Of a stretch of 64,000 bases of DNA, positions 61-61,309 are shown in pieces; the stretch's first letter is position 1, and each line of letters begins with the position of its first letter. The position numbers were made by a program, and so were the translations under genes. Location: contig NZ_AZUP01000001.1 in the NCBI RefSeq assembly GCF_000527135.1, positions 3,038,001-3,102,000 of the forward strand. Direction: 5' to 3'. Under the pieces are notes generated by a model. It ran no database searches, was not told the origin of the DNA, and saw nothing but the letters and a program-made list of their open reading frames with translations. The stretch comes from Methyloversatilis discipulorum. GTDB lineage: Bacteria > Pseudomonadota > Gammaproteobacteria > Burkholderiales > Rhodocyclaceae.

Positions 61-1512
61 TCAGTGCACCGTACACACCATGCACGGATCGAAAGACCGC
101 ACGATGTGCTGCACCGCCACCGGCGTCGTTTCGCCCTCGCGCACCGGCGCGCCTTCGAGTGCCGACTCCAGCGCGCCGGGGCGGCCGGCGGCGTCGCGTG
201 GCGAGAAGTTCCAGGTGGTGGGCGCGACGATCTGGTAGTTGGCGATGCGGCCATCGCGCACCGAAATCCAGTGACCCAGACTGCCGCGCGCCGCTTCGCC
301 GAGGCCGGCGCCGCTGCCTTCGTCCGGCAACCGGCCCGGCGTGCAGAAGGGTTCGCCCGGCCGCACGGCGCGCAGCCAGTCTTCCATCATGAGCACGACG
401 CGCGCGAGTTCGAGCAGGCGGGCGACGACGCGGGTGTAGACCGTGCCGCCGTAACGGCCGACCAGATCGACGATGAGCCGATGGCCGCTCGCCAGCTGGC
501 GCGCGATGGCGCCGGTTTCGACCACCTCGCCGGCCAGCCGCGGCGCCTTGTTCCAGGTGTAGGCGCCCGCCTTGTCCGGTTCCGGCCGCGTGACGCCGCT
601 GCGCGGATGCTGCGGGCCGCCGGCATCGCTCAGCCAGGCGTGCGTGGCGTCTTCGCGGATGGCGGCCGGGTCGAGCGGCGACAGCGCGCCGGCGTGCCAG
701 ACGCCTGCGCCCAGCGCGGTGCCGCCCTCAGGCTGCGGGTAGGCGCCGTAGCTGAGGAAGCGGCCGGAGCCAACCCCGAGCGTGGCCAGCGTCGCGTCGC
801 GGGCGACGGTCAGGAAGAAGTGCAGGTCGCCGTTCAGCGGGTCGGCGGCGTGCCAGGCGTCGAGCGCGGCTTCCGAATCGAGCGCGGCCACCTGTTCCAG
901 CGGCGCGGCATAGGTGTGGGTTTCGAGGAAGCGGCGGAATTCGCGCACGCGGGCCAGCAGGCGCACGCGTTCGGCGGCGTCGATGGCGCGCGTCGAGCCA
1001 CCGGGGTCGATGCTCTGCGTGTGCGGCCACTTGCCGGCCAACGTGCCGAGCAGCGTGAACCAGCGCTGGCGCGCGGCGATCGCGGCGCGTACCCGTTCGC
1101 CGGTCTGCGGCGTGAAGCGGCGCACCGCCTCGGCATGCCAGGGCCGGCTGGCGTACACCGGGCGCACGAAATCCGGCATGAAGAACAGGTAGAAGTGGGT
1201 CAGGTGATCGGCCAGATTTTCGGTGGCGAGAATCACATTGGTGACGTGCTGGCCGTTGGCCGGCATCGTGATGCCGCCGAGATCGGCCAGCGCACGCGCG
1301 GCCGCCACCGACTGCGACACCGAACAGATGCCGCAGATGCGCGGCACATACACCAGCGCGTCATGCGGCTCGCGCCCGCGCAGGATCTGCTCGAAGCCGC
1401 GGTACATCGGCGCATTGACGTGCGCCGATGCGACGCGACCGTCGGCGACGTCCAGCGTCACTTCGAGATCGCCCTCGACGCGGTTGAAGGGGCCGACGAG
1501 GAGGCGGGTCAT
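61..1512 (-). CDS. hoxC: regulatory (H2-sensing) NiFe hydrogenase large subunit HoxC/HupV
   Basis: The 483-residue protein carries both NiFe-site cysteine pairs: RICGIC at residues 58-63 and DPCMVC near the C-terminus. It ends exactly at the histidine of DPCMVCTVH, with no cleavable C-terminal tail. Catalytic large subunits have such a tail and regulatory ones (HoxC, HupV) lack it, so the ending identifies this as the H2 sensor rather than an energy-converting enzyme. With HoxB it would sense hydrogen in the cytoplasm and control a HupT/HoxJ kinase that acts on HoxA. It is the last gene of the minus-strand hydrogenase train and is separated from hoxB by a small membrane-protein gene. Confidence 0.93.
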   Translation of the reverse strand: MTRLLVGPFNRVEGDLEVTLDVADGRVASAHVNAPMYRGFEQILRGREPHDALVYVPRICGICSVSQSVAAARALADLGGITMPANGQHVTNVILATENLADHLTHFYLFFMPDFVRPVYASRPWHAEAVRRFTPQTGERVRAAIAARQRWFTLLGTLAGKWPHTQSIDPGGSTRAIDAAERVRLLARVREFRRFLETHTYAAPLEQVAALDSEAALDAWHAADPLNGDLHFFLTVARDATLATLGVGSGRFLSYGAYPQPEGGTALGAGVWHAGALSPLDPAAIREDATHAWLSDAGGPQHPRSGVTRPEPDKAGAYTWNKAPRLAGEVVETGAIARQLASGHRLIVDLVGRYGGTVYTRVVARLLELARVVLMMEDWLRAVRPGEPFCTPGRLPDEGSGAGLGEAARGSLGHWISVRDGRIANYQIVAPTTWNFSPRDAAGRPGALESALEGAPVREGETTPVAVQHIVRSFDPCMVCTVH

Positions 1513-1937: not shown

Positions 1938-2933
1938 TCACTTCAACCTCGTCCGTCTCGCCACCGGCGGCACCACCACGTGGTCGGACACCGCGTTCAC
2001 CTTCACCCGCTTGGGCGTCGCCGACTTCGACAGTGAGGCCAGCGCGACGAACCAGGCCTTGGGCATGTCGGTCGGCAGGCCGATCGGGATGCCGGCGAGC
2101 TTGGGTGTGGCGTGGAAGGGGTGGCCCGGTTCCTGGAAGCCGGGTTCGGTGCAGCTGATGCAGGCGTAGCCGCCGCGGGTGCAGGAGCCCTCGCCGTTCC
2201 ACGGCCGGGTGTTGCAGTCGGCGTGCGCCTGCGTGCCCTTGCAGCCCATGTGTTCCATCATGCAGCCGAGGTCGGAGGGCTTTTCGGCGCTGGCCTTGAA
2301 TTCGTAGTACTCGTTGCGCGTGCAGCCGTGGTGCACCAGCTGGTCGGCGTAGAAGCGCGGCCGGCCCAGCGTGTCGAGGTCGGCTTCGGTGAAGCCGTCG
2401 GCGGCCAGCGCCATCAGCGTGTCGAGCACCCAGCTCGGGTGGGTCGGACAGCCGGCGATATTGATCACCGGCAGGCCGCCACGAGCACGGAAGTCGCCGC
2501 CGAGCAGGCCGCCGCGCACGTCGTCCTCGTACTGCAGGCCGCAGGCGTCGGTCGGGTTGTCGCCGCCGGCGGTGACGCCGCCCCAGGCGGCGCAGCTGCC
2601 GATGGCGATCACGTGGCGCGCCTTCGCGGCGAGCTTGCGCACCCATTCGATCATCGGCAGACCGGTGCCGGCCATGATGTGGAACCGGCCCGTACCATTC
2701 GGCCCGCGCAGCAGCGAACCTTCGACGCACAGCGCGTCCAGCGGCAGATCGCCGTCGAGAATGCGGCCGAGCAGCGCGGTCACCTCAGTGCCGCTGTCCA
2801 GCGACAGCGACGGATGCCACAGCAGAGCTATGCCGGCGTCGCGCAGCTGACCGTGGAAATCGTCGGTGTCGGCGCACAGCAGCGACATGCTGCAGCCGCC
2901 GCAGCCGCCGGACTGCAACCAGAGCATGTTCAT
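1938..2933 (-). CDS. hoxB: regulatory hydrogenase small subunit HoxB/HupU
   Basis: This is the iron-sulfur small subunit of the H2 sensor, 331 residues. The N-terminus has the proximal-cluster motif with Cys11 and Cys14 directly after the start, and further conserved cysteines follow (GSCAAWG, GCPTHP, and a C-terminal set around GYACISC). There is no Tat signal peptide, as expected for the cytoplasmic regulatory type and unlike HoxK in this window. I chose the ATG at 2933 because the frame upstream is arginine-rich and unlike the family, and because this start overlaps the hoxW stop by four bases. HoxC is the partner subunit. Confidence 0.92.
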   Translation of the reverse strand: MNMLWLQSGGCGGCSMSLLCADTDDFHGQLRDAGIALLWHPSLSLDSGTEVTALLGRILDGDLPLDALCVEGSLLRGPNGTGRFHIMAGTGLPMIEWVRKLAAKARHVIAIGSCAAWGGVTAGGDNPTDACGLQYEDDVRGGLLGGDFRARGGLPVINIAGCPTHPSWVLDTLMALAADGFTEADLDTLGRPRFYADQLVHHGCTRNEYYEFKASAEKPSDLGCMMEHMGCKGTQAHADCNTRPWNGEGSCTRGGYACISCTEPGFQEPGHPFHATPKLAGIPIGLPTDMPKAWFVALASLSKSATPKRVKVNAVSDHVVVPPVARRTRLK

Positions 2934-3424
2934 GCATTTACTCCTTCGGTGTGCGCGCCGCGAGCGACGGCGTCGTGCAGCCATTCGCGCGCCCGGACGA
3001 GCGCCTGTTCGAGATCGGCCACGGCCTGCGCATCCGGCTGCTCGCCCAGTTCCCAGCGGCGGCCGCGGATGGCCAGTACATCACAGCGCGGCGGTTCGCG
3101 CTGCTGCAGATCGACGAATACCTGCAGCAGCGCTTCCGGCGACAGCGCGTGGCTGGTGATCCGGCGCTCGCGTTGCGGCTCGACCCTGCGCATCTGACAG
3201 GCGGCATCCAGCCCGCGCGCGGCGTCGACGAAGAGCACGCGTTCGCGGCCGACCAGATCGAGCGCGTGCTCGATCTGCAGTTGGTAGTCGCTGAGGCAGT
3301 CCACGCTGCCGGCGGGCAGGGCGCGCCCCGCATACGCCGCCAGCGCATCGACGAGCATCGGGCCCAGCGCGTCGTCGCCGCGGCTCGGGTTGCCCCAGCC
3401 CAGCACCAGCAGCGGCGCCGTCAT
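2930..3424 (-). CDS. hoxW: hydrogenase maturation protease HoxW
   Basis: The 164-residue protein belongs to the HyaD/HycI endopeptidase family. The N-terminal GWGNPSRGDDALG segment (residues 9-21) carries the conserved acidic residue that senses nickel in the precursor. These proteases remove the C-terminal tail of the large subunit after nickel insertion. Its place directly after hoxH, overlapping that gene by four bases, points to HoxH of the soluble enzyme as substrate. A second protease gene, hoxM, serves the membrane-bound enzyme elsewhere in the cluster. Confidence 0.88.
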   Translation of the reverse strand: MTAPLLVLGWGNPSRGDDALGPMLVDALAAYAGRALPAGSVDCLSDYQLQIEHALDLVGRERVLFVDAARGLDAACQMRRVEPQRERRITSHALSPEALLQVFVDLQQREPPRCDVLAIRGRRWELGEQPDAQAVADLEQALVRAREWLHDAVARGAHTEGVNA

Positions 3425-6177: not shown

Positions 6178-7991
6178 GCCGGCGTGTCCGTGTGCAGATG
6201 CGCGCCGGCGTCGCTGCGGCCGGTGGCGCGGCGCGCCGACGACAGTTCGGCGTCGAGGTCGACATCCGGCTGGAACTGCGGCGCGGTCGCGCGCTGCGCG
6301 TAGGCGGCGCCGAAATGACGCATCGTGTCGCGCAGCGGATTGCAGGCCGAGGCGCCGAGGCCGCAGTGGGTGCCGCTGTGCAGCACCGTATCGAGATCGT
6401 GCAGGCGGTCGATGTCGAAGGCGGACGCGCTGCCGGCGCCGCGCGCGTGCGCCAGCTTGTCCAGCCGACGCACCACCAGTTCGGTGCCGACGCGACAGGG
6501 CGTGCACAGGCCGCAGCTCTCGTGCGCGAAGAAGCGGGCGAAGTGGCGCGCCACCTCGAACAGGTCGCGCGTGCGGTCGAACACCATGAAGGCGCCGGCG
6601 CTCGGCACGTCCTCGAAGGCGATGGCGCGGCCCGCTTCCGACGCCGGCACGCAGGCGCCGGACGGCCCGCCGACCTGCACCGCCTGCACGTCGCGCGCGC
6701 CGCAATCGGCCAGGATCTGCGCGATGGGCGTGCCCAGCGGATATTCGTACAGGCCGGGTCGCGCGCAGTCGCCGGACACCGAGTGGATCTTGGTGCCGGT
6801 CGATTGCGTGGTGCCGATGCCGGCCCACCAGGCGCCGCCGCGGCGGGCGATGTGGGCGACCGCGCAGAAGGTTTCGACGTTGTTCACCACGGTCGGTCGG
6901 CCGAGGTAGCCAGCCTGCACCGGAAAGGGCGGGCGGATGCGCGGCGTGCCGCGCTTGCCCTCGAGCGATTCGATCAGCGCCGATTCCTCGCCGCAGACAT
7001 AGGCGCCGGCGCCCAGATGGATGGCGATGTCGAAACCGAAGCCGGCGACGCCGCCCACGTCACGGCCGAGCAGGCCCTGCGCGCGGCGGCGCGCGAGCAC
7101 CTGTTCGAGCTGCGGCAGCAGGAAACGGTATTCGCCACGCAGATACAGAAAGCCCTGCTGCGCGCCGACCGCGCGCGCCGCCACCGTCATGCCGTCGAAC
7201 ACGGCGTCGGCGTGACTCGCCAGCAGCACGCGGTCCTTGAAGGTGCCGGGCTCGCCCTCGTCGGCGTTACAGACGACGACGCGCAGGTCGCCTGCCGCGT
7301 CGCGACAGGCCTGCCACTTGCGCGCGGTCGGGAAGCCCGCGCCGCCGCGGCCGCGCAGGCCGGATGTCGCCACCTCGTCGAGCAGGGCCTGCGGCGACTG
7401 CGCGAGCACCGCCGGCAAGGCGGGCGTGTCGGCGGCCAGGCCGCTCAGCAGCACGTCGGCGCGCTGCACACCGTCGATCACGTCGAACCACGCCGCCGGC
7501 CACTGTTCCACCGGCGTGTCGGCGAGCAGCAGATCGGCGAGCGCATCGACGCGCGCTGCGTCCAGTCGCGTGACGACCGGGTGGTGATTGACCAGCAGCG
7601 CCGGCCCCTGATCGCACAGTCCGGTACAGGAACAGCGGTCGACACTGAAGCGGCCCTGCGCGTCGACCTCGCCCGGTGCGACGCCGAGGCGTGCGCACAG
7701 CTGCGCCAGCAGCGTTTCGCTGCCCAGCATGCGGTCGGTGATGTTGTCGGAGAACAGCACTCGCGTGCGGCCGACCGGACGGGTGTGAAAGAAGCGGTAG
7801 AAGCCGGCCACGCCTTCGACGTGGGCCAGCGTCAGACCGAGTGCGGCGGCGATGTGGGCGAGCAGCGGGCGCGGCAGCCAGTGGGTGAGCGCCTGCGTTT
7901 CGCGCAGGATCTGCACCAGCGCGTGCGGATCGCGCTGCCAGCGGCCGAGCACCGCATCGACCCCACCCGCGACTGTCGCAGCATCGACCAT
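6174..7991 (-). CDS. hoxF: NAD-reducing hydrogenase diaphorase subunit HoxF
   Basis: The 605-residue subunit has an N-terminal NuoE-like region (about 1-170), with CSCTGLC for a 2Fe-2S cluster, fused to a NuoF-like region. The latter has an FMN glycine motif (RGRGGAGFP), an NAD-binding stretch (GAGAYVCGEE), and a 4Fe-4S set (CGLCTPC plus a later cysteine in HCGLG). It reduces NAD+ with electrons from H2. It overlaps the hoxA stop by one base, so the soluble hydrogenase genes are transcribed from within the larger train. Confidence 0.95.
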   Translation of the reverse strand: MVDAATVAGGVDAVLGRWQRDPHALVQILRETQALTHWLPRPLLAHIAAALGLTLAHVEGVAGFYRFFHTRPVGRTRVLFSDNITDRMLGSETLLAQLCARLGVAPGEVDAQGRFSVDRCSCTGLCDQGPALLVNHHPVVTRLDAARVDALADLLLADTPVEQWPAAWFDVIDGVQRADVLLSGLAADTPALPAVLAQSPQALLDEVATSGLRGRGGAGFPTARKWQACRDAAGDLRVVVCNADEGEPGTFKDRVLLASHADAVFDGMTVAARAVGAQQGFLYLRGEYRFLLPQLEQVLARRRAQGLLGRDVGGVAGFGFDIAIHLGAGAYVCGEESALIESLEGKRGTPRIRPPFPVQAGYLGRPTVVNNVETFCAVAHIARRGGAWWAGIGTTQSTGTKIHSVSGDCARPGLYEYPLGTPIAQILADCGARDVQAVQVGGPSGACVPASEAGRAIAFEDVPSAGAFMVFDRTRDLFEVARHFARFFAHESCGLCTPCRVGTELVVRRLDKLAHARGAGSASAFDIDRLHDLDTVLHSGTHCGLGASACNPLRDTMRHFGAAYAQRATAPQFQPDVDLDAELSSARRATGRSDAGAHLHTDTPA

Positions 7992-9439
7992 CACCCCTCC
8001 AGCCCGAAGCGCACCATCTTTCCACGCAGACCGACCCGGGACAGACCCAGTTCCTTGGCGGCGCGCGTCTTGTTCCAGCGGTGGCGGAGCAGGGTTTCGC
8101 GCAGCACCATGGCTTCGATCGCGTCCAGCCGCTCGGCCAGCGTGCCGCTCGCCGGCAACGGGGTGGCGCTGGCGGTGGCGGTGAGGCCGGCCTGACCGTG
8201 CAGCACGCGCAGCGACAGCGACTGCGCCTCGATCCGTTCGCTGTCGCTCAGCGCCAGTGCGCGCGCCAGTTCGTTGCGCAGTTCGCGGATGTTGCCGGGC
8301 CACGGATAGCCCATCAGACACGCCATCGCCTCGTCGGTCAGCGAGGCGCCGGGGCGGCCCAGTTCGATGCCCACCTCGTCGACCACGCGGCGGGCGATCG
8401 GCTCGATGTCGCCGACGCGCTCGCGCAGCGGCGGTACGGTGAAGGTGGCGCCGGCGATGCGGTAATACAGATCCTCGCGGAACAGCCCTTCGCGCACCCG
8501 CTGTTCGAGGTCGCGGTGGGTGGCGGCGATGACGCGCACGTCCACCGGTACCGCGCGCGTGCCGCCGACCGGGCGCACCTCGCCTTCCTGCAGCACACGC
8601 AGCAGGCGCACCTGGAAGGCGGGCGAGGTTTCGCCGATCTCGTCGAGGAATACGGTGCCGCCGTCGGCGCGCTGGAAGAGGCCGATGTGGTCCTCGTAGG
8701 CGCCGGTGAAGGCACCGCGCTTGTGGCCGAACAGTTCGGATTCGAGCAGGGTTTCCGGTATCGCCGCGCAGTTCTCGACGACGAAGGCGCCATTGGCGCG
8801 CGGACTGGCGTAGTGGATGGCGCGCGCCAGCAACTCCTTGCCGGTGCCGGATTCGCCGAGCACCAGCACCGACAGGTCGTAGCGGGCGACACGCGCGGCC
8901 ATTTCGCACACCGAATCGAGCGGGCTGCCGGTCGAGCGCTCTATGCGATCGAAGCCGAAGGTGCGACGCGCGCGCTCCAGCTTGTGCGCGGCGCGCTGGC
9001 GCAGCACGGGTGTGGCGGTGCGCAGTTCGAGGTCGAGGCGGGCGGTTTCCTGCTGCAGCGTCTGCGCCTCGGCGGCATTGCGCACGGTGGCCAGCAGGTG
9101 GTCGGGCACCCAGGGCTTCAGGATGTACTGGTAGATGCCGGCGTCGTTGATGCCGGCGATGATGTCTTCCGAATCGGTGTAGCCGGAAATGACGATGCGC
9201 ACGACGTCGGGCCAGCGCTCGCGCACCTCCTTCAGGAACAGCACGCCGGTCAGGCCGGGCATGCGCTGGTCGCACAGGATGACATTCACCTCGTGCCGCT
9301 CCAGCTGCTGGCGCGCGTCGTCGGCGCCGCTGGCGGTGAGTACGGTGAAGTCCTCTTCCAGCGTGCGGCGCATCGCGTCCTGCGAGCGGACCTCGTCATC
9401 GACCACCAGCACGGTGGGCACGCGCAGGCTCGCGTTCAT
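7991..9439 (-). CDS. hoxA: sigma54-dependent hydrogenase activator HoxA (NtrC family)
   Basis: Three domains are visible in 482 residues: a receiver domain with the phosphoacceptor Asp57 (CDQRMPG), an AAA+ domain with GESGTGKE and the sigma54 contact motif GAFTGA, and a C-terminal Fis-type helix-turn-helix. HoxA and HupR activate hydrogenase promoters with RpoN, under control of HoxBC and a HupT/HoxJ kinase; in studied members the unphosphorylated form is active. A kinase of that type is encoded at 42642-44003. The sigma54-like elements before hoxK and cbbR are its candidate targets. The gene overlaps hoxX by four bases. Confidence 0.94.
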   Translation of the reverse strand: MNASLRVPTVLVVDDEVRSQDAMRRTLEEDFTVLTASGADDARQQLERHEVNVILCDQRMPGLTGVLFLKEVRERWPDVVRIVISGYTDSEDIIAGINDAGIYQYILKPWVPDHLLATVRNAAEAQTLQQETARLDLELRTATPVLRQRAAHKLERARRTFGFDRIERSTGSPLDSVCEMAARVARYDLSVLVLGESGTGKELLARAIHYASPRANGAFVVENCAAIPETLLESELFGHKRGAFTGAYEDHIGLFQRADGGTVFLDEIGETSPAFQVRLLRVLQEGEVRPVGGTRAVPVDVRVIAATHRDLEQRVREGLFREDLYYRIAGATFTVPPLRERVGDIEPIARRVVDEVGIELGRPGASLTDEAMACLMGYPWPGNIRELRNELARALALSDSERIEAQSLSLRVLHGQAGLTATASATPLPASGTLAERLDAIEAMVLRETLLRHRWNKTRAAKELGLSRVGLRGKMVRFGLEG

Positions 9440-24742: not shown

Positions 24743-25831
24743 TCAGTGATCGACCGTCGTCGTCGAGCCGTTGTCGTGCTTGTGCGAGGCGCGCTTGATC
24801 GCCGATACCGCGGCGTGCGCCACCGCGGCCGCACCGACCACACCGGCGGCGGTCGCGCCGACCTGGTCGGCGTTGGCTTCGATGCCGAACTGGTGGATGT
24901 CGGTCAGGCGGTCGTAGAACGAACCCTTGTCCCAGAAGCCGTCTTCCGAGCAGCCGATGCAGCCGTGGCCAGCCTGGATCGGGAAGCTCGTGCCTTCGTT
25001 CCAGCGCACGGTGGAGCAGGCGTTGTAGGTGGTCGGGCCCTTGCAGCCGACCTTGTAGAGGCAGTAGCCCTTGCGCGCGGACTCGTCGTCCCAGGCTTCG
25101 ACGAACTGGCCGGCGTCGAAGTGCGGACGGCGGTAGCACTTGTCGTGAATGCGCTGGCTGTAGAACATCTTCGGCCGGCCCTGGCGGTCCAGCTCGGGGA
25201 TGCGGTCGAAGGTGAGCATGTAGGTGATGACGCCGGTCATCACCTCGGCGATCGGCGGGCAGCCCGGCACCTTGATGATGGGCTTGTCGAAGATGACCTT
25301 GTGCACCGGGGTGGCCTGCGTCGGGTTCGGCTTGGCCGCCTGCACGCAGCCCCAGCTGGCACAGGAACCCCAGGAGATGATGGCCTTGGCGTCCTTGGCA
25401 ACGTGCTTGAGCTGGTCGATGAAGGGCTTGCCGCCGATGATGCAGCTCATGCCATCCTGGTTCAGCGGCGGGTTGCCCTCGACCGCCAGGATGTAGTTGC
25501 CCTTGTACTTGGTCATGATCTCTTCGAGGATCGCCTCGGCCTGGTGCCCTGCGGCGGCCATCAGCGTGTCGTCGTAGTCGAGCGAGATCATCGACAGCAC
25601 CACGTCCTTCGCCAGCGGGTGGGCCGAGCGGATGAAGGATTCGGAACAGCAGGTGCATTCCAGACCGTGCAGCCACAACACCGGGGTGCGCGGCTTGGTT
25701 TCCATCGCGTGGGCGATCTGCGGCACGAAGGCCGGGCCGAGGCCGAGCGAGGTGGCCGTCAGCGAACAGTACTTCAGGAAACTGCGGCGCGAGATGCCCT
25801 GCCGGCGCATCACCTCATAGAAGGTTTCCAT
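24743..25831 (-). CDS. hoxK: oxygen-tolerant membrane-bound hydrogenase small subunit HoxK
   Basis: The 362-residue precursor has a Tat signal (RRSFLK, residues 15-20) with likely cleavage before METKP at residue 43. In the mature protein, cysteines at 17, 19 and 20 (ECTCC) and the two in WGSCASWGC reproduce the six-cysteine set around the unusual proximal 4Fe-3S cluster of oxygen-tolerant hydrogenases; the two extra ones are Cys19 and Cys120. A C-terminal hydrophobic helix (about 320-340) anchors it to the membrane. AGGAGAG precedes the ATG. It is the first gene of the whole train. Confidence 0.97.
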
Positions 25832-25969: not shown

Positions 25970-26057
25970 TAACAAGTTGCGGGCCAGCCGGGTTTTCTGC
26001 GCCGCAGCAAAAATATTGATGTAGATCAAGGCATTGATCTGCATCGGAAAAGATATG
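25970..26057 (-). promoter_or_regulatory. hoxK promoter: sigma54-like element with IHF-like site
   Basis: On the minus strand, 25989-25970 reads GGCTGGCCCGCAACTTGTTA, close to the RpoN consensus TGGCACG-N4-TTGCW (differences A to C, and C to T in the -12 GC). At 26037-26026 is ATCAATGCCTTG, matching the IHF core ATCAA-N4-TTR. ATATGC is read on the plus strand at 26052-26057. HoxA in this cluster is a sigma54 activator. The same three blocks recur at the same spacing before cbbR. The leader to the hoxK ATG is about 140 bases. Confidence 0.65.
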
Positions 26058-26175
26058 CGAAGCGAGGGTGGGGCGCGGGTGCGTCGACGAACCGTGGTGC
26101 AAGCACATCTGCCGATTTCCGCCCGCGTCTGGCAAGCACGCTTCCACCGGCCGCGGGACGGTCGGGCGCAGCCCT

Positions 26176-26443: not shown

Positions 26444-27574
26444 GTGTCCGGCCTTCTGCCCAATGTCGATCCCGAAGGACTGCTCGAATATTCGGTCGTC
26501 TATACCGACCGCGCGCTGAACCACATGTCCGCCGCCTTCCAGGGCGTCATGAAGGACATTTCGCGCGTACTGAAGCAGGTCTACAACGCCAAATTGGCCG
26601 TCGTCGTGCCGGGCAGCGGCACCTTCGGCATGGAAGCCGTGGCGCGCCAGTTCGCCACCGACCAGAAGGTGATGGTGATCCGCAACGGCTGGTTCAGCTT
26701 CCGCTGGACGCAGATCTTCGACATGGGCCGCATCCCGTCGGAGCAGATCGTGCTGAAGGCGCGCCAGCCGGAGCCGGGTTCGCAGAAGGCGTTCGCGCCG
26801 GCGCCGGTCAAGGAAGTCGTCGCCGCCATCCTCGAACAGAAGCCCGCCGTGGTGTTCGCGCCGCAGGTCGAAACCTCGGCCGGCATGCTGCTGCCGGACG
26901 ACTACCTGCGTGAAGTCGCCGCCGCGGTGCGCGAGGTCGATGGCCTGTTCGTGGTCGACGCCATCGCCGCCGGCACGCTGTGGGTGGACATGGGCGCGCT
27001 CGGCATCGACATCGTCGTGTCGGCTCCGCAGAAGGGCTGGAGCGGTTCGCCCTGCGCCGGTCTGGTCATGCTGGGGGAACGCGCCCGTGCGCGCATCGAC
27101 GGCACCACCAGCACCAGCTACGCCGCCGACCTGAAGAAGTGGCTGCAGATCATGGAAGCCTACGAGAACGGCGGCCACGCCTATCACGCGACGCTGCCGA
27201 CCGACGCGCTGACCAAGCTGCGCGACGTGATGCTGGAAACCGAGCGCTACGGCTTCGACAAAGTGAAGGCCAACCAGATCGAACTGGGCCGCCAGATCCG
27301 TGCGCTGCTGGAAGCCAAGGGCTTCGACAGCGTTGCCGCCGAAGGCTTCAAGGCGCCCTGCGTGGTGGTGAGCTACACCAGCGATCCGGATATCCAGTCG
27401 GGCAAGAAGTTTTCCGCCCAGGGCCTGCAGATCGCCGCCGGCGTGCCGCTGCAGGTGGACGAACCGGCCGACTTCCGCACCTTCCGCGTCGGCCTGTTCG
27501 GTCTGGACAAACTGCAGAACGTCGAGCGCACCGTGCAGAGTTTCAAGGCGGCGCTGGACAAGGTCGCCGGCTGA
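26444..27574 (+). CDS. class V aminotransferase, alanine/serine-glyoxylate type
   Basis: The 376-residue PLP enzyme has the VPGSGTFGMEA motif (about 55-65), FVVDAIAAG, and the Schiff-base lysine in SAPQKGWSG (about 195-203). This fits the family of alanine- or serine-glyoxylate aminotransferases, which convert glyoxylate to glycine. The start is GTG at 26444 with GGAGAGA upstream. Sitting beside the RuBisCO operon, which also encodes phosphoglycolate phosphatase, it could handle glyoxylate from photorespiration. The exact amino donor cannot be told from the sequence. Confidence 0.85.
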   Translation: MSGLLPNVDPEGLLEYSVVYTDRALNHMSAAFQGVMKDISRVLKQVYNAKLAVVVPGSGTFGMEAVARQFATDQKVMVIRNGWFSFRWTQIFDMGRIPSEQIVLKARQPEPGSQKAFAPAPVKEVVAAILEQKPAVVFAPQVETSAGMLLPDDYLREVAAAVREVDGLFVVDAIAAGTLWVDMGALGIDIVVSAPQKGWSGSPCAGLVMLGERARARIDGTTSTSYAADLKKWLQIMEAYENGGHAYHATLPTDALTKLRDVMLETERYGFDKVKANQIELGRQIRALLEAKGFDSVAAEGFKAPCVVVSYTSDPDIQSGKKFSAQGLQIAAGVPLQVDEPADFRTFRVGLFGLDKLQNVERTVQSFKAALDKVAG

Positions 27575-27699: not shown

Positions 27700-27890
27700 G
27701 GCAAGCGTAGGAATAGCTTGTCGGGCGGAGGGACCGAGTCCGGATCTGACGGCAAGTACGTACAGACAGTGGGAGAGATGTCCCGCCCTCACCCCAAGCA
27801 CCGATCAGGAATCCATCGGACCGTGTTGCCGCGGTACCGTCCATACCCTGCAAGCCAGTGCTGTGGTGAATCCCGACAAGCCTTTTGAAC
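27700..27890 (+). ncRNA. candidate bridge RNA in the IS110 left end
   Basis: IS110-group elements encode a bridge RNA in the noncoding left end, with a target loop then a donor loop. Here GTGGGAG at 27769-27775 is the exact reverse complement of the target right half CTCCCAC (28881-28887), as expected for a right-target guide. Further on, GGAATC (about 27809-27814) resembles the left donor end GAATCT, and CATAC (27842-27846) is the complement of GTATG at the element's left end. The left-target guide is not obvious. Boundaries are approximate and no structure was computed. Confidence 0.45.
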
Positions 27891-27911
27891 CTTAGTCGGG
27901 AGGGCCCCATC

Positions 27912-28877
27912 GTGACAAGTCAGAACGAGGCAGTGTGCTTTGGCATCGATATCTCCAAGCACTGGCTGGACATCGCCGAGCACCCCAGCGCGCAGGTGAC
28001 GCGCATCGACAACACGGCTGCGGCCATCCGCGGCTGGTTGCGTACGCTACCGAAAGGCAGCCAGCGCATCGCCTGCGAATCGACCGGCACCTATCACCGC
28101 ACGCTCGTCGAGCTGCTCATCGGCGCCGGACATCAGGTGTTTCTGATCGACGGCTTCAAGCTGTCCCGGTACCGCGACACCGTGGGCCAGCGCGCCAAGA
28201 CCGATCGGCACGACGCACGCCTAATCGCCCGCTACCTCGCGCACGAGGGCACGGATCTGCGCCCGTTCTCGCTCCCGGCGCCCGCGGTCACCGCGCTGCG
28301 CAGCCTGCTGCGTCGGCGCGCAACCGTAGTGCGCAGCCTGGGTCGCATCCGTCAGAGCATGGAAGATCTGCCCGGCTTTGGTCGCGAAGTGCGCGTGGCC
28401 CTGGCGCGGCTCACCGCATTGATCAAACGGTTCGAACAGCGCATCGCCTCGCTGATCAACGAAAGCGGATGGACGGAGCCGTACCGGCGCATCCTGAAGA
28501 TCGAAGGTGTTGGCGCGCTGACCGCCGCTGGCCTGTGCGCGGCCTTCCATCGCGCTCCCTTCAGCGGCGCGGACGCCTTCATCGCCTTCCTCGGCCTGGA
28601 CGTCAGCGTGCGCGATTCGGGCAAGAAGACCGGACGCCGAGCGCTGAGCAAGAAGGGCGATTCGGAGATGCGTCGCCTGCTCTACAACGCCGCCATGGCG
28701 GCCAGCCGGTCCTCGACCTGGCAGCCCTTCTACCAGCGCATGCTCGAGCGCGGATTCAGCCGCACCCAGGCGCTCGTTGCGCTGGCCCGAAAGCTCGCGC
28801 GCGTTGCCTTCTCACTGATGAAGAACGCTGCCGACTATGTCCCGAAACAGCATGAAAACGCTTGCGGCGGAACATAG
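27912..28877 (+). CDS. IS110-family transposase (DEDD recombinase)
   Basis: The 321-residue protein has the RuvC-like DEDD residues: FGIDISK near the N-terminus, CESTGTYH, and KTDRHDARLIA. The C-terminal Tnp2 region has the catalytic serine in RRALSKKGDSEMRR. GTG at 27912 is the likely start, with GGGAGGG just upstream; a TTG nine codons earlier lacks a ribosome-binding site. The TAG stop lies inside the right-end inverted repeat. The frame is intact, so the element may be active. Confidence 0.92.
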   Translation: MTSQNEAVCFGIDISKHWLDIAEHPSAQVTRIDNTAAAIRGWLRTLPKGSQRIACESTGTYHRTLVELLIGAGHQVFLIDGFKLSRYRDTVGQRAKTDRHDARLIARYLAHEGTDLRPFSLPAPAVTALRSLLRRRATVVRSLGRIRQSMEDLPGFGREVRVALARLTALIKRFEQRIASLINESGWTEPYRRILKIEGVGALTAAGLCAAFHRAPFSGADAFIAFLGLDVSVRDSGKKTGRRALSKKGDSEMRRLLYNAAMAASRSSTWQPFYQRMLERGFSRTQALVALARKLARVAFSLMKNAADYVPKQHENACGGT

Positions 28878-29050: not shown

Positions 29051-30037
29051 CTAGCCCGACAGAGGCGGAAGGTCCGCCCCGGCACCTGCCGCACACACCT
29101 GCATCGCCAGTCCCGGTGCGCGGGAAAGCTGGTCCTGCACGTGCTGCTGGCCGTGGTCGATCAGGAAGCGCTCGAATTCCTGGCCGATGCGGGTGAGCTG
29201 GCGCGACGCCAGCCGGATCACATACCACTCGCGTTCTATCGGGTTGCCGGCCACCGGCAGCAGCGCCAGTTCGCCCGATTCCAGTTCGTGCCGGCAGATG
29301 TGCTGCGACATGAAGGCGAGGCCGAAGCCGGCGGCACACATCTGCTTGATCGCCTCGTTGCTCGACAGCTCGGAACCGATGCGCAGACTCAGATCCGCCT
29401 CGCGGAACAGCTGCTCCAGCGTAGTGCGGGTGCCGGAGCCGCGTTCGCGCACCAGCAGATCCTCTTTCGCCAGATCGCGCAGCACCAGCCGCTTGCGCGC
29501 CATCAGCGGGTGGGTCGGTGCGGCGACGAAGGCCATGGTGTGGCGGGCGAAGGGCGTGGCCACCGTTTTCAGGTCCTTCGGCGGCCGACCCATGATGACC
29601 AGATCGACCTCCTGCATCGTGAGCAGGCGCACGATCTCGTCGCGGTTGCCCACCTTGAGCTTCACCTCGACATTCGGCTGTTCGCGCGCAAACACGACGA
29701 GCATGCGCGGCACCAGGTATTCGGCGGTGGTGACCACGCCGATGCGCAAGCGGCGCGACACCACGCCGCGATAGGCCGCCATTTCGTCGCCCACCTCTCG
29801 CCACAGGTCGAGGATGCGCGCAGCGTACTCGGCCATCAGCTCGCCGGCGCCGGTCAGGCGGATGCCACGCCCCTCGCGTTCCAGCAGCGGCGTGCCGGCG
29901 GATTCTTCCAGCAGCTTGAGCTGTATCGACACCGCGGGCTGGGTCAGGTGGATTTCGCTGGCCGCGCGCGACACGCTGCCCAGACGGGCGACCGCGTGCA
30001 GCGCTGAAAGCTGGCGTAGCGTGGCGTTCTTGAGCAT
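29051..30037 (-). CDS. cbbR: LysR-type regulator of carbon fixation CbbR
   Basis: The 328-residue LysR-family protein has an N-terminal helix-turn-helix (LRQLSALHAVARLGSVSRAA, about 7-26) and a C-terminal effector domain. It is divergent from cbbL, the classical arrangement, and should activate the cbb operon in response to metabolites. I use the ATG at 30037: AGGAG lies nine bases upstream, while the TTG two codons earlier leaves no room for a ribosome-binding site. Its own upstream region carries a sigma54-like promoter resembling that of hoxK. Confidence 0.93.
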   Translation of the reverse strand: MLKNATLRQLSALHAVARLGSVSRAASEIHLTQPAVSIQLKLLEESAGTPLLEREGRGIRLTGAGELMAEYAARILDLWREVGDEMAAYRGVVSRRLRIGVVTTAEYLVPRMLVVFAREQPNVEVKLKVGNRDEIVRLLTMQEVDLVIMGRPPKDLKTVATPFARHTMAFVAAPTHPLMARKRLVLRDLAKEDLLVRERGSGTRTTLEQLFREADLSLRIGSELSSNEAIKQMCAAGFGLAFMSQHICRHELESGELALLPVAGNPIEREWYVIRLASRQLTRIGQEFERFLIDHGQQHVQDQLSRAPGLAMQVCAAGAGADLPPLSG

Positions 30038-30076
30038 GGGCAATCTCCTGCGGGCCGGAAAGGGACATCCGGACCA

Positions 30077-30164
30077 TTACAAGTTGCGCGCCAGCCTGGT
30101 CACGGGCGCGCAAAAGTGCGCCTCATGAATGCCAAGTCATTGATAAACAAAAGCTGATATATGC
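30077..30164 (-). promoter_or_regulatory. cbbR promoter: sigma54-like element and IHF-like site matching hoxK
   Basis: On the minus strand, 30096-30077 reads GGCTGGCGCGCAACTTGTAA, differing from the hoxK element at only two of 20 positions. At 30145-30133 is TATCAATGACTTG, a full match to the IHF consensus WATCAANNNNTTR. Its distance from the sigma54-like element is the same as at hoxK. ATATGC on the plus strand (30159-30164) also falls at the same offset. The cbbR ATG lies 40 bases downstream of the -12 region. Confidence 0.6.
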
Positions 30165-30295
30165 ACTGCGGCAGCGCCGCAGCGGGCCGGCCCGACAACG
30201 TGCATTGCAGCCGCAGCCCCGCACCGCAAGCGGCGCTTGCAGTGAACGCGACCGATGCGGCAGCGCAGCATCCACTTTCCAGCCCCCGTCTGACA

Positions 30296-30308
30296 TAAGC
30301 CTAACTTA
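30296..30308 (+). promoter_or_regulatory. candidate CbbR operator
   Basis: TAAG-CCTAA-CTTA is a palindrome of the LysR T-N11-A form, placed 107 bases before the cbbL start in the cbbR-cbbL intergenic region. The bases between it and the start are AT-rich (TTTTCTTATCCATAACCC), a likely promoter zone. No footprint evidence; this is by pattern only. Confidence 0.45.
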
Positions 30309-30309
30309 A

Positions 30310-31881
<1,572 letters not shown>

Positions 31882-42641: not shown

Positions 42642-44003
42642 TCAGGTAAGCGAGGCAGCCGCCGGCAGTTCGAGCACGAATTCGGCGCCGCCGTCCGGGT
42701 GGTTGCGGGCGACCAGTGTGCCGCCGTGCTGTTCGACGATGCCGTAGCTGATGGACAGGCCGAGGCCGGTGCCCTTGCCGACCGGCTTGGTGGTGAAGAA
42801 GGGTTCGAAGATGCGCGACAGGTATTCGTCCGGAATGCCCGGGCCGTTGTCGCGCAGGGTCATGCGGACGCGGTCGCCTGCGACGCCGCAATCGATGGAC
42901 AGTTCGGCGACGCGGCCGTCGGCACCGGCGGCGTCGCAGGCGTTCTGCAGCAGGTTCATCACCACCTGCTGCAGCTGGCCGGCGCTGCCCATGACGACGC
43001 AGGGCGCGCCGGCATCCCAGTACATGTCGACGGCGGCGGTGGTGCCCTTGCGTATCCAGTGGATGGCGCGCTCGATCACGGCATTCAGGTCGACCGCGGT
43101 GCGACCTTCCGGGTCCACCGCCGAGAAACGCTTCAGGCCGTTCACGATGTCGGCGGTGCGCTGCGCGCCTTCCATCGTGCCTTCGATCAGCGAGGGCAGA
43201 TCCTTCAGCAGGTGCTCGATGCGCAGCTTGGTGCGCAGTTCACCCAGTTCCTCGTCGGAAGCGCCCGCATGCACCGCGTCGATATAGCGGCCCATGCGCT
43301 CGCTGTACTTCTTCAGCGCATGAACATTGCCGAGCACGAAGCTGATCGGGTTGTTCAGTTCGTGCGCAACGCCGGCCACCAGACGGCCGAGCGAGGCCAT
43401 CTTCTCCGAGTGCAGCAGTTGCTGCTGCGCCAGCTTCAGCGCCTCGTGCGCCTCACGCAGCTCGTGGTAGGCGCGCTTCAGTTCGGCCGTCGGGCGGCCG
43501 ACGAACACGGTGCCGGCGCGCTTGCCGTTGCGTGCGAAACGCGGCGTCAGATTGGTGTCGACCGGCACCGGGCGGCCCTCGCCGTCGCGCAGATTCAGTT
43601 CGACCGCCTGCCCGCGGCGCGACGGGTTGGCGTCGTCGAGCACGCTGCGCATGCGCGCGCGGCTGTCGTCGTCGGCGAGCAGCGCAAACACCGGCGTGCC
43701 GCGCAGTTCGTCGTCGCTGCGGCCGACCAGTTCGCACAGCGCGGCGTTGGTTTCCTCGATCTCGCCGCGCTCGTTGCACACCAGCAGCACGTCCGACATC
43801 GCGGACATGACGCTGAAGATGAACTGCTGCGACTGCTCCAGCTCGACGTTCTTCTGTTCGAGCGCGATTTCGTCGCTGACCAGCTGCGAATACACCTCGT
43901 CCATGCGCTGGATCACGTCCAGCCAGGTCGATTCGTCCACGCCTTCGATGTGGGCGCGTGCGATCAGGGCGTCGGTGTCGGCGGGCTTGGGCAGGTCGGT
44001 CAT
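42642..44003 (-). CDS. hoxJ: HupT/HoxJ-type sensor histidine kinase
   Basis: The 453-residue soluble kinase has an N-terminal helical region (MDEVYSQLV, then [12 protein letters not shown]), a PAS domain (about 62-165), an H-box with His214 ([16 protein letters not shown]), and HATPase motifs [16 protein letters not shown] and GTGLGLS. The H-box and coiled-coil segments are those I associate with HupT/HoxJ, the kinases controlled by HoxBC and acting on HoxA. No hoxJ follows hoxC here, so this gene is the best candidate despite lying 41 kb away. No membrane helix is seen. It ends against the REP array, convergent with cbbA. Confidence 0.72.
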
Positions 44004-44019
44004 CGTGGCGGCGCCAGGG

Positions 44020-44784
44020 TCAGCGGGCGCTGCGGCCGGCGGCGCGTCGCCAGTGACCGGGCGGCAGGCCGAAGCGCTGGGTGAAACGGCGGGTGAACGC
44101 CGACTGGTCGGCGAAGCCGGTGTCGAGCGCGATGTCGCCGAGTGCGCGCGTGCTGTCGTCGAGCAGCGCGAGCGCGGCATCCAGGCGCAGGCGGATCAGG
44201 TAGCGGTGCGGCGGCTCGCCGAAGGCGTCGACGAAGAGATCGTGGAAGCGGCGCGGACCATAGCCGAAGCGGGCTGCCAGTTCCTTCAGCGGCGGTGCGT
44301 CGCCGGCGTGGCGACGCAGCCAGCCGTCGATGCGGGCAACCGGGAAACGGCGCGCGTCGTCGTCGGTCGGTGCGGCGTGCAGACGCTGCGCCAGATCGTC
44401 GGCAAAACGGGTCGCCAGCAGCCAGTGACGCGGCCGCGACACGCGCTCTCCGGCCAGCCCGAGCAGCGGCTGCACGCGCCGGCGCAGCGCGGCGTCGATG
44501 GCGAAAGCGCGCGGACGGCGGAACAGCGACGCCGGCAAGGCGACCGACGCTGCCGGCAGGTCGACCACCAGCTGGCGGTTGGCCGCGTCCAGCCCGCGGT
44601 AGTCGTGCCGGGTGCCGGCCGGAATCAGCAGCCCGGCGCCGGCATCGACCCGGTGCAAGTGACCGTCGAGCTCCAGCTCGGTACCGCCGTCGCCGCCCAG
44701 CACGACCTGGTGGAAGTCGTGCGCGTGCCCGGCCGGTTCGGCCGCGTAGCAGCGGGTATCGACGTTGGGATCGGCAGCGTGCAT
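44020..44784 (-). CDS. AraC-family transcriptional regulator
   Basis: The 254-residue protein has an N-terminal cupin-like sensor domain (HAHDFHQVVLG near residue 20, LIPAGTRHDYRG) and a C-terminal double helix-turn-helix (LKELAARFGYGPRRFHDLF and ALDTGFADQSAFTRRF). It precedes the kinase gene by 16 bases and may share its transcript. The more likely target is the EamA transporter gene immediately upstream on the same strand, a common pairing. The ligand is unknown. Confidence 0.88.
   Translation of the reverse strand: MHAADPNVDTRCYAAEPAGHAHDFHQVVLGGDGGTELELDGHLHRVDAGAGLLIPAGTRHDYRGLDAANRQLVVDLPAASVALPASLFRRPRAFAIDAALRRRVQPLLGLAGERVSRPRHWLLATRFADDLAQRLHAAPTDDDARRFPVARIDGWLRRHAGDAPPLKELAARFGYGPRRFHDLFVDAFGEPPHRYLIRLRLDAALALLDDSTRALGDIALDTGFADQSAFTRRFTQRFGLPPGHWRRAAGRSAR

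Positions 44785-58789: not shown

Positions 58790-61309
<2,520 letters not shown>

Follow-up and report, generated by a model that had tools for sequence, protein, structure and literature searches.

In H2-oxidising autotrophs, the adjustment of electron supply and carbon fixation is mostly explained by metabolite sensing through CbbR and by global redox regulators. In Rhodobacter capsulatus, an H2 sensor, a kinase and the NtrC-family regulator HupR act on the uptake hydrogenase (hup) genes, and HupR works with sigma70 polymerase. We know of no control of cbbR by HupR.

For the hydrogenase and cbb genes of Cupriavidus necator H16, the published accounts consulted give the following picture. 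The hoxK promoter is sigma54-dependent (PMC4377017), and the promoter P_SH is under HoxA and sigma54, with possible involvement of IHF (PMC10073562, PMC4377017). HoxA is active in the unphosphorylated form and is inactivated by HoxJ (PMC10073562). On the carbon side, cbbR is divergent from cbbL (PMC7733298), and CbbR is required for the expression of the cbb genes, which drops 100-fold in a cbbR knockout (PMC8591527). The cbb promoters are sigma70-dependent and controlled by CbbR and RegA, and mbh is under sigma54 and HoxA (PMC10763379). No report of HoxA control of cbbR was found in the open-access literature searched, which lacks most of the older work.

The locus described here combines features of these systems. 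Its cbbR promoter region resembles C. necator H16 P_MBH (hoxK) in a GG-N10-TTG-type element and P_SH (hoxF) in a HoxA-type pair 32 bp apart with possible IHF involvement, and HoxA, HoxJ and HoxB homologues are encoded as in C. necator H16. Unlike P_MBH and P_SH, the promoter fronts a regulator of carbon fixation instead of a hydrogenase operon, its operator sites are weaker and its HoxA dependence is putative. The chain of H2 sensor, kinase and NtrC-family regulator is shared with the R. capsulatus HupR system, which differs in its use of sigma70 polymerase. As in C. necator cbb control by CbbR and RegA/RegB, CbbR is divergent from cbbL and presumably needed for cbb expression; in contrast to that system, for which the accessible text of PMC10763379 describes no HoxA input to cbbR, the sequence suggests, with a probability of about 0.77, that in one group of Methyloversatilis the HoxA/sigma54 (hydrogen) regulon includes cbbR.

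Hydrogenase and Calvin-cycle genes in one region

The host genome is that of a methylotrophic Methyloversatilis (4.31 Mb, single contig), whose CbbR protein shares 99% identity with its counterpart in an M. discipulorum MAG. The window, which is the whole stretch of 64,000 nucleotides that was analysed, contains the following genes relevant to cbbR control.

61..1512, minus strand: hoxC, large subunit of the regulatory hydrogenase, adjoining hoxB; matches NiFe hydrogenase large-subunit families, below their cut-offs
1938..2984, minus strand: hoxB, small subunit of the regulatory hydrogenase; 75% identity to C. necator HoxB
7991..9439, minus strand: hoxA, sigma54-dependent response regulator; 73% identity to C. 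necator HoxA
24743..25831, minus strand: hoxK, small subunit of the membrane-bound hydrogenase; TIGR00391 above cut-off; start codon set from relatives
29051..30037, minus strand: cbbR, LysR-type activator of the cbb operon; best NCBIfam match CbbR at 263 bits, below the curated cut-off of 450
30045-30049, minus strand: AGGAG, ribosome-binding sequence of cbbR (ATG at 30037)
30415..31881, plus strand: cbbL, first gene of the divergent cbb operon, RubisCO large subunit; open reading frame identified by eye
42642..44180, minus strand: hoxJ, sensor kinase located beyond the cbb operon; 65% identity to C. necator HoxJ across 434 residues

The minus strand carries hoxK with the other membrane-bound hydrogenase genes, hyp genes, a hoxX-like gene and hoxA, followed further along by the genes of a second hydrogenase and then by hoxB and hoxC. 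The second hydrogenase is, by our reading of its large subunit and protease, of the NAD-reducing type. To the right of hoxK are located an aminotransferase gene, an IS110 element, cbbR, the divergent cbb operon and hoxJ. Behind cbbL, the operon contains cbbX and the genes for phosphoglycolate phosphatase, fructose-bisphosphatase, phosphoribulokinase, transketolase and aldolase.

The presence of HoxA in the window, stated in an earlier reading made from the sequence only, holds, and the receiver region of the protein contains the stretch LCDQRMPG as in C. necator. HoxA, HoxJ, HoxB, HoxC and sigma54 are all encoded in the genome, the four Hox proteins within the window, and rpoN is present in a single copy. 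The hoxJ open reading frame starts further upstream than that of C. necator HoxJ, so the annotated start may be too early.

Several neighbouring genes deserve mention. The PLP-dependent aminotransferase gene (26444-27574, plus strand), located between hoxK and cbbR, has its best family matches in 2-aminoethylphosphonate and aspartate-glyoxylate aminotransferases, all below cut-offs; as a guess, the enzyme has a photorespiratory salvage role alongside phosphoglycolate phosphatase. The IS110 transposase gene (27885-28877, plus strand) lies between this gene and cbbR. To the left of hoxC (L221 7000-10000), translations judged by eye point to a Fic-like gene, a NikR-like regulator and a TonB-dependent receptor; nickel uptake for the hydrogenases is a possible role.

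Putative promoter and operator blocks upstream of cbbR and hoxK

The blocks recognised upstream of hoxK and in the cbbR-cbbL interval are as follows, with positions such as -116 counted upstream from the -24/-12 element of the gene named.

25970..25986, minus strand: sigma54-type element of hoxK, TGGCCCGCAACTTGTTA; 18.2 bits
26027..26039, minus strand: IHF-like core of hoxK, GATCAATGCCTTG; core at -50
26098..26114, minus strand: hoxK operator site -128; 3.9 bits alone, rank 51
26130..26146, minus strand: hoxK operator site -160, TGGAAGCGTGCTTGCCA; 14.7 bits, best site in 64 kb
30077..30093, minus strand: sigma54-type -24/-12 element of cbbR, TGGCGCGCAACTTGTAA; 16.0 bits with the hoxK matrix from other genera
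30133..30145, minus strand: IHF-like site of cbbR, TATCAATGACTTG; core at -49, between operator and promoter
30193..30209, minus strand: HoxA-type operator site -116 of cbbR, TGCAATGCACGTTGTCG; 6.9 bits, rank 18 among some 64,000 positions of the window
30225..30241, minus strand: HoxA-type operator site -148 of cbbR, TGCAAGCGCCGCTTGCG; 1.65 bits alone, rank 94
30258..30274, minus strand: possible third operator-like site -181 of cbbR, TGGATGCTGCGCTGCCG; 4.9 bits, rank 36, weakest conservation
30300..30370, strand not given: A+T-rich cbbL-proximal block

The sequence-only reading had claimed that hoxK and cbbR share a 20-base element, an IHF-like core and an ATATGC block at identical spacing. 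The two minus-strand 20-mers (25970-25989 at hoxK and 30077-30096 at cbbR) are indeed identical at 18 of 20 positions, an identity reached by none of 1000 shuffled upstream pairs (maximum 17). In the whole genome, mismatch-free matches to the 20-mer are found at the hoxK and cbbR sites only; with up to three mismatches, the consensus 20-mer has 4 sites in 4.31 Mb and the reversed-pattern control 6. Two simpler searches were set aside. The bare -24/-12 element TGGCNYGNNNCTTG has 45 genome matches versus 22 for its reversed control and was rejected as sole evidence, and the 20-mer with three mismatches is uninformative across 199 family genomes, 189 of which contain matches.

The -24/-12 element was compared with the hoxK promoters of other bacteria. 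Upstream regions were collected from 70 hoxK loci (30 + 40), and the start was located in 68 of them, 12 from Methyloversatilis and 56 from other genera. The pattern TGG[CT]-N7-TTG, with the letter after TTG unconstrained, lies within 180 nt of the hoxK start in 58 of the 68 (12 Methyloversatilis, 46 other genera). Across 947,296 positions, three sites score 16.0 bits or more, the cbbR element among them. The sequence-only reading also carried the caveat that the -12 GC is GT in both promoters, which now loses force. TTGT stands at -12 in 12/12 Methyloversatilis hoxK promoters, and of the 35 distinct hoxK elements from other genera it makes up the largest class (T 13, C 11, A 7, G 4). Given this frequency and the C. 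necator hoxK element, which reads AGGCATAGATCTTGTTT, GT at -12 is normal for this promoter class.

The IHF-like core ATCAATGMCTTG is present in both regions as claimed; its distance beyond the element is 37 bases at hoxK and 36 bases at cbbR, rather than 37 at both, so that the spacing of the blocks is equal to within one base and not exact. The pattern WATCAANNNNTTR has a single match in 64 kb, at cbbR (30133-30145), with 0.17 expected. Written as CAA-N4-TT, the core lies at -49/-50 in 12/12 Methyloversatilis hoxK promoters and at -48/-49 in all seven cbbR promoters that carry the complete set of blocks (the module). The ATATGC block is likewise present at both, with GCATAT, the reverse complement of the plus-strand ATATGC, 63 bases out at hoxK and 62 at cbbR, and is poorly kept as a hexamer (5/12 Methyloversatilis hoxK promoters, 1/7 module-bearing cbbR promoters). 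A role as third functional hexamer block is thus unsupported, though the shorter GCAT recurs at this position in 9/12 hoxK and 5/7 cbbR promoters (our own count from the same output).

Beyond the IHF core are located the putative operators. In many hoxK promoters of other genera, an inverted repeat of approximately TGGAA-N7-TTCCA is found at preferred distances upstream of TGGC-N7-TTG. From 41 promoters of other genera (46 before removal of near-copies), a 17-base palindromic operator matrix was derived by expectation maximisation from a starting motif set by eye; the motif reflects co-occurrence with hoxK, not footprints. With this matrix, the -148 and -116 sites of cbbR are 32 bp apart, with a pair score of 8.5 bits, and the -181 site lies another 33 bp out. 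The hoxK sites -160 and -128 are separated by the same 32 bp, and a pair at -160/-128 or -159/-127 is present in 12/12 Methyloversatilis hoxK promoters. The cbbR sites are the weaker ones (6.9 and 1.65 bits versus 14.7 and 3.9 bits), and the -148 site, the best conserved cbbR operator, reads best as an 18-base and not a 17-base repeat. Operator pairs of at least 8.5 bits occupy 16 of 18,872 overlapping windows, a test that is partly post hoc because the 32-bp spacing was noticed before it was written; for the same reason the 32-bp pair of C. necator P_SH, found later, is the more independent support.

This C. necator pair lies upstream of hoxF on pHG1 (L268), with a 10.8-bit site at -156 and a 4.2-bit site at -124; the P_SH promoter element scores 8.3 bits only and has GC at -12. 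The pair is in its own right a candidate operator of a well-studied hydrogenase promoter. The low score of the P_SH element weakens the case, as do several hoxK promoters of other genera. The best operator matches of C. necator hoxK are weak and oddly placed (7.1 at -244, 6.3 at -187), Paraburkholderia hoxK has two middling matches (8.0 and 6.7) at a distance of 43 bp, and neither promoter element nor operator was found within 420 bp of C. taiwanensis hoxK. A single strong site (16.7 bits at -103) is present at Afipia carboxidovorans hoxK.

A scan that joined the operator matrix with a -24/-12 matrix of 35 elements, both built without Methyloversatilis, covered both strands of 474 kb of the genome and gave 181 candidates with a promoter element above 6 bits. 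In this combined scan, hoxK ranked first (36.8 bits) and cbbR second (24.6 bits); the third candidate (19.4 bits) is a -24/-12 element without an operator pair. Among 5000 dinucleotide-shuffled versions of the cbbR-cbbL interval, the highest score was 22.3, and none came up to that of cbbR. A search for a sigma70-type consensus at 29980-30480 gave 0 matches; real promoters can escape scans of this kind, and cbbR may also be served by the cbbL-proximal block.

Four places in the 474 kb have operator pairs of 8.5 bits or more, namely hoxK, cbbR, position 59791 of the window and one array in L234. The site at 59791-59807, the second-best operator-like site of the window (13.4 bits), lies within a reading frame and has a partner about 32 bp away (pair 9.7 bits); it is absent from the best-ranked modules. 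The array at L234 11317-11400 (about 2,631,320 of the same genome) has pairs of 8.8 and 9.2 bits, lies a few kb from rpoN and has no top-ranked sigma54 element beside it.

The cbbR promoter might be a genuine sigma54 and IHF promoter that answers to another activator, NtrC-like or other, and to a signal that is not hydrogen. Binding to inverted repeats at distances of this kind is common among sigma54 activators, the operator sites of cbbR score far below the best hoxK site, and a HoxA search of the genome gave 120 first-look candidates (unclassified), so other proteins of this class are likely to be present. We nevertheless regard this explanation as unlikely, for an operator matrix from hoxK promoters alone still put cbbR second of 181, the 32-bp pair matches both hoxK and C. 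necator P_SH, and in the 8 Methyloversatilis genomes that have both genes on one contig, no more than about 5 kb separates cbbR from hoxK.

Distribution of the module within and beyond Methyloversatilis

Thirteen Methyloversatilis genomes were compared, 11 of which have an orthologous cbbR. The architecture first noticed in one sequence recurs in part of this set: the promoter, IHF and operator blocks of cbbR are found together in 7 of the 11 orthologues and are missing together in 4, one of which has a weak -24/-12-like match (8.3 bits) and no operator pair. On the cbbR tree, module presence corresponds to a single change (support 96/93), for which gain and loss are indistinguishable because the tree has no outgroup. 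Among the 7 genomes, invariant positions number 15/17 in the promoter element, 15/19 in the IHF site, 15/17 in the -148 site, 9/17 in the -116 site and 8/17 in the -181 site, compared with 47/169 in the spacers. The module scores 22.3-25.5 bits in six of the genomes and 11.3 bits in the seventh, M. universalis EHg5 (G118; L027/L101), in which the -12 element is decayed (TGGCGCGAAACGTGTAA) and the IHF and -148 sites remain, as if, judging by these letters, the link between cbbR and hydrogen were being lost.

The presence of a hydrogen system does not divide the genomes with the module from those without it, as hoxA and hoxC are present in all 11 genomes with cbbR (12/13 overall). The 4 orthologues that lack the module despite hoxA and hoxC indicate that the cbbR link is dispensable. 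Gene order was also ruled out as the deciding factor. The cbb operon is located between hoxJ and hoxK in four module-bearing genomes (G000, G182, G118, G070), hoxJ lies beyond hoxC in two others (G204, G205), and the genes are on separate contigs in G199. Among the module-free genomes, hoxJ is again beyond hoxC in G005, G200 and G203, where the matched cbbR end is about 280-290 bp from hoxK, and in G201 hoxJ is 1.8 kb upstream of hoxK with cbbR on a different contig. In G152, hoxJ is about 0.2 kb upstream of hoxK. The MAG G205 has hoxK twice (96 and 93% identity to the query), once beside cbbR on contig C10 and once on contig C13, which also carries hoxA.

Beyond the genus, the combined module was not found at 52 cbbR loci, where the best total was 12.4 bits from the promoter element alone. 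These are 52 of 71 loci, after leaving out 8 of Methyloversatilis type (scored apart), 2 with short upstream regions and 9 weak matches. No promoter candidate was present at 17 cbbR homologues of the family (19 fetched, 2 near a contig end excluded), and no module candidate in the upstream region of Afipia carboxidovorans cbbR. Searched as DNA against 399 genomes of the order, the cbbR module matched its own locus and gave 4 partial matches of 34-39 query bases. In the cbbL-hoxK interval of C. necator pHG1, the best candidates per strand are the hoxK element and a pairless -24/-12-like site (13.4 bits).

The same comparison bears on the idea that the -116, -148 and -181 repeats are operators for autoregulation by CbbR or another LysR protein, with the -24/-12 element a dead relic of an old duplication of the hoxK promoter. 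Autoregulation from the divergent interval is the usual case for LysR genes, the element is decayed in M. universalis EHg5, and the non-consensus letters common to the hoxK and cbbR elements (18/20) are what a duplication would give. The -148 repeat (TGCAAGCG) and the ATCAATG core are, however, absent from the 4 module-free orthologues, whereas the cbbL-proximal block is found in 11/11 orthologous regions, module or not, and across 7 genomes the promoter, IHF and -148 blocks have changed far less than the spacers, which would not be expected of a dead relic. This makes the autoregulation and relic explanation quite unlikely.

A meaningless chance resemblance in a G+C-rich genome is very improbable, since neither the 5000 nor the 1000 shuffles reached the module score or the 18/20 identity and the module is conserved in 7 genomes with no counterpart at the 52 cbbR loci of other genera, even if the bare TGGCNYGNNNCTTG is frequent (45 versus 22), the ATATGC hexamer is poorly kept and operator pairs that equal the cbbR pair in strength exist at two further places in 474 kb.

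Hydrogen as a candidate input to CbbR

The proposal that HoxA and sigma54 act at both hoxK and cbbR is supported by the matrices from other genera, by the joint presence or absence of the blocks and by the Hox genes in the window. The sequence shows the blocks themselves, with their arrangement, conservation and specificity, and the regulatory genes; that HoxA binds and sigma54 is used, where transcription starts and what follows for carbon fixation are inferred from the DNA alone. As a member of this regulon, cbbR would be a new target of a known regulator through a known mechanism.

The 377-bp cbbR-cbbL interval would consist of two regulatory units, the cbbL-proximal block, which is probably the CbbR operator together with the cbbL promoter, and a sigma54 promoter near cbbR. 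The cbbR-proximal unit is predicted to be an enhancer-dependent promoter of hydrogenase type. Its -24/-12 element precedes the start codon by about 40 nt, the IHF site lies some 50 bp further out from that element, and beyond the IHF site come two HoxA-type sites, perhaps three, at intervals of 32-33 bp. HoxA, bound at the paired sites, would activate sigma54 RNA polymerase on DNA bent by IHF, so that cbbR is transcribed together with hoxK. The sigma54 polymerase starts about 12 nt past the -12 element. A transcript of cbbR would thus begin near 30067 and have a leader of about 30 nt containing AGGAG before the ATG at 30037.

HoxJ and the H2 sensor HoxBC control HoxA activity, so H2 would raise the level of CbbR. 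With somewhat less assurance than regulon membership itself, we favour the reading that the HoxBC-HoxJ-HoxA chain drives cbbR and that H2 acts as a feed-forward signal, raising CbbR and hence the Calvin-cycle operon alongside the hydrogenase that supplies the electrons. Energy limitation, the other published condition, could likewise raise CbbR. In either case, CbbR would switch on the cbb operon when its own metabolite signal permits.

A direct wire from H2 to CbbR would, if true, be a simple feed-forward link between electron supply and carbon fixation. The operator matrix may also be used to chart HoxA regulons elsewhere. In addition, the locus would show how facultative autotrophs gain or lose regulatory connections, with close relatives that carry or lack the module serving as natural controls.
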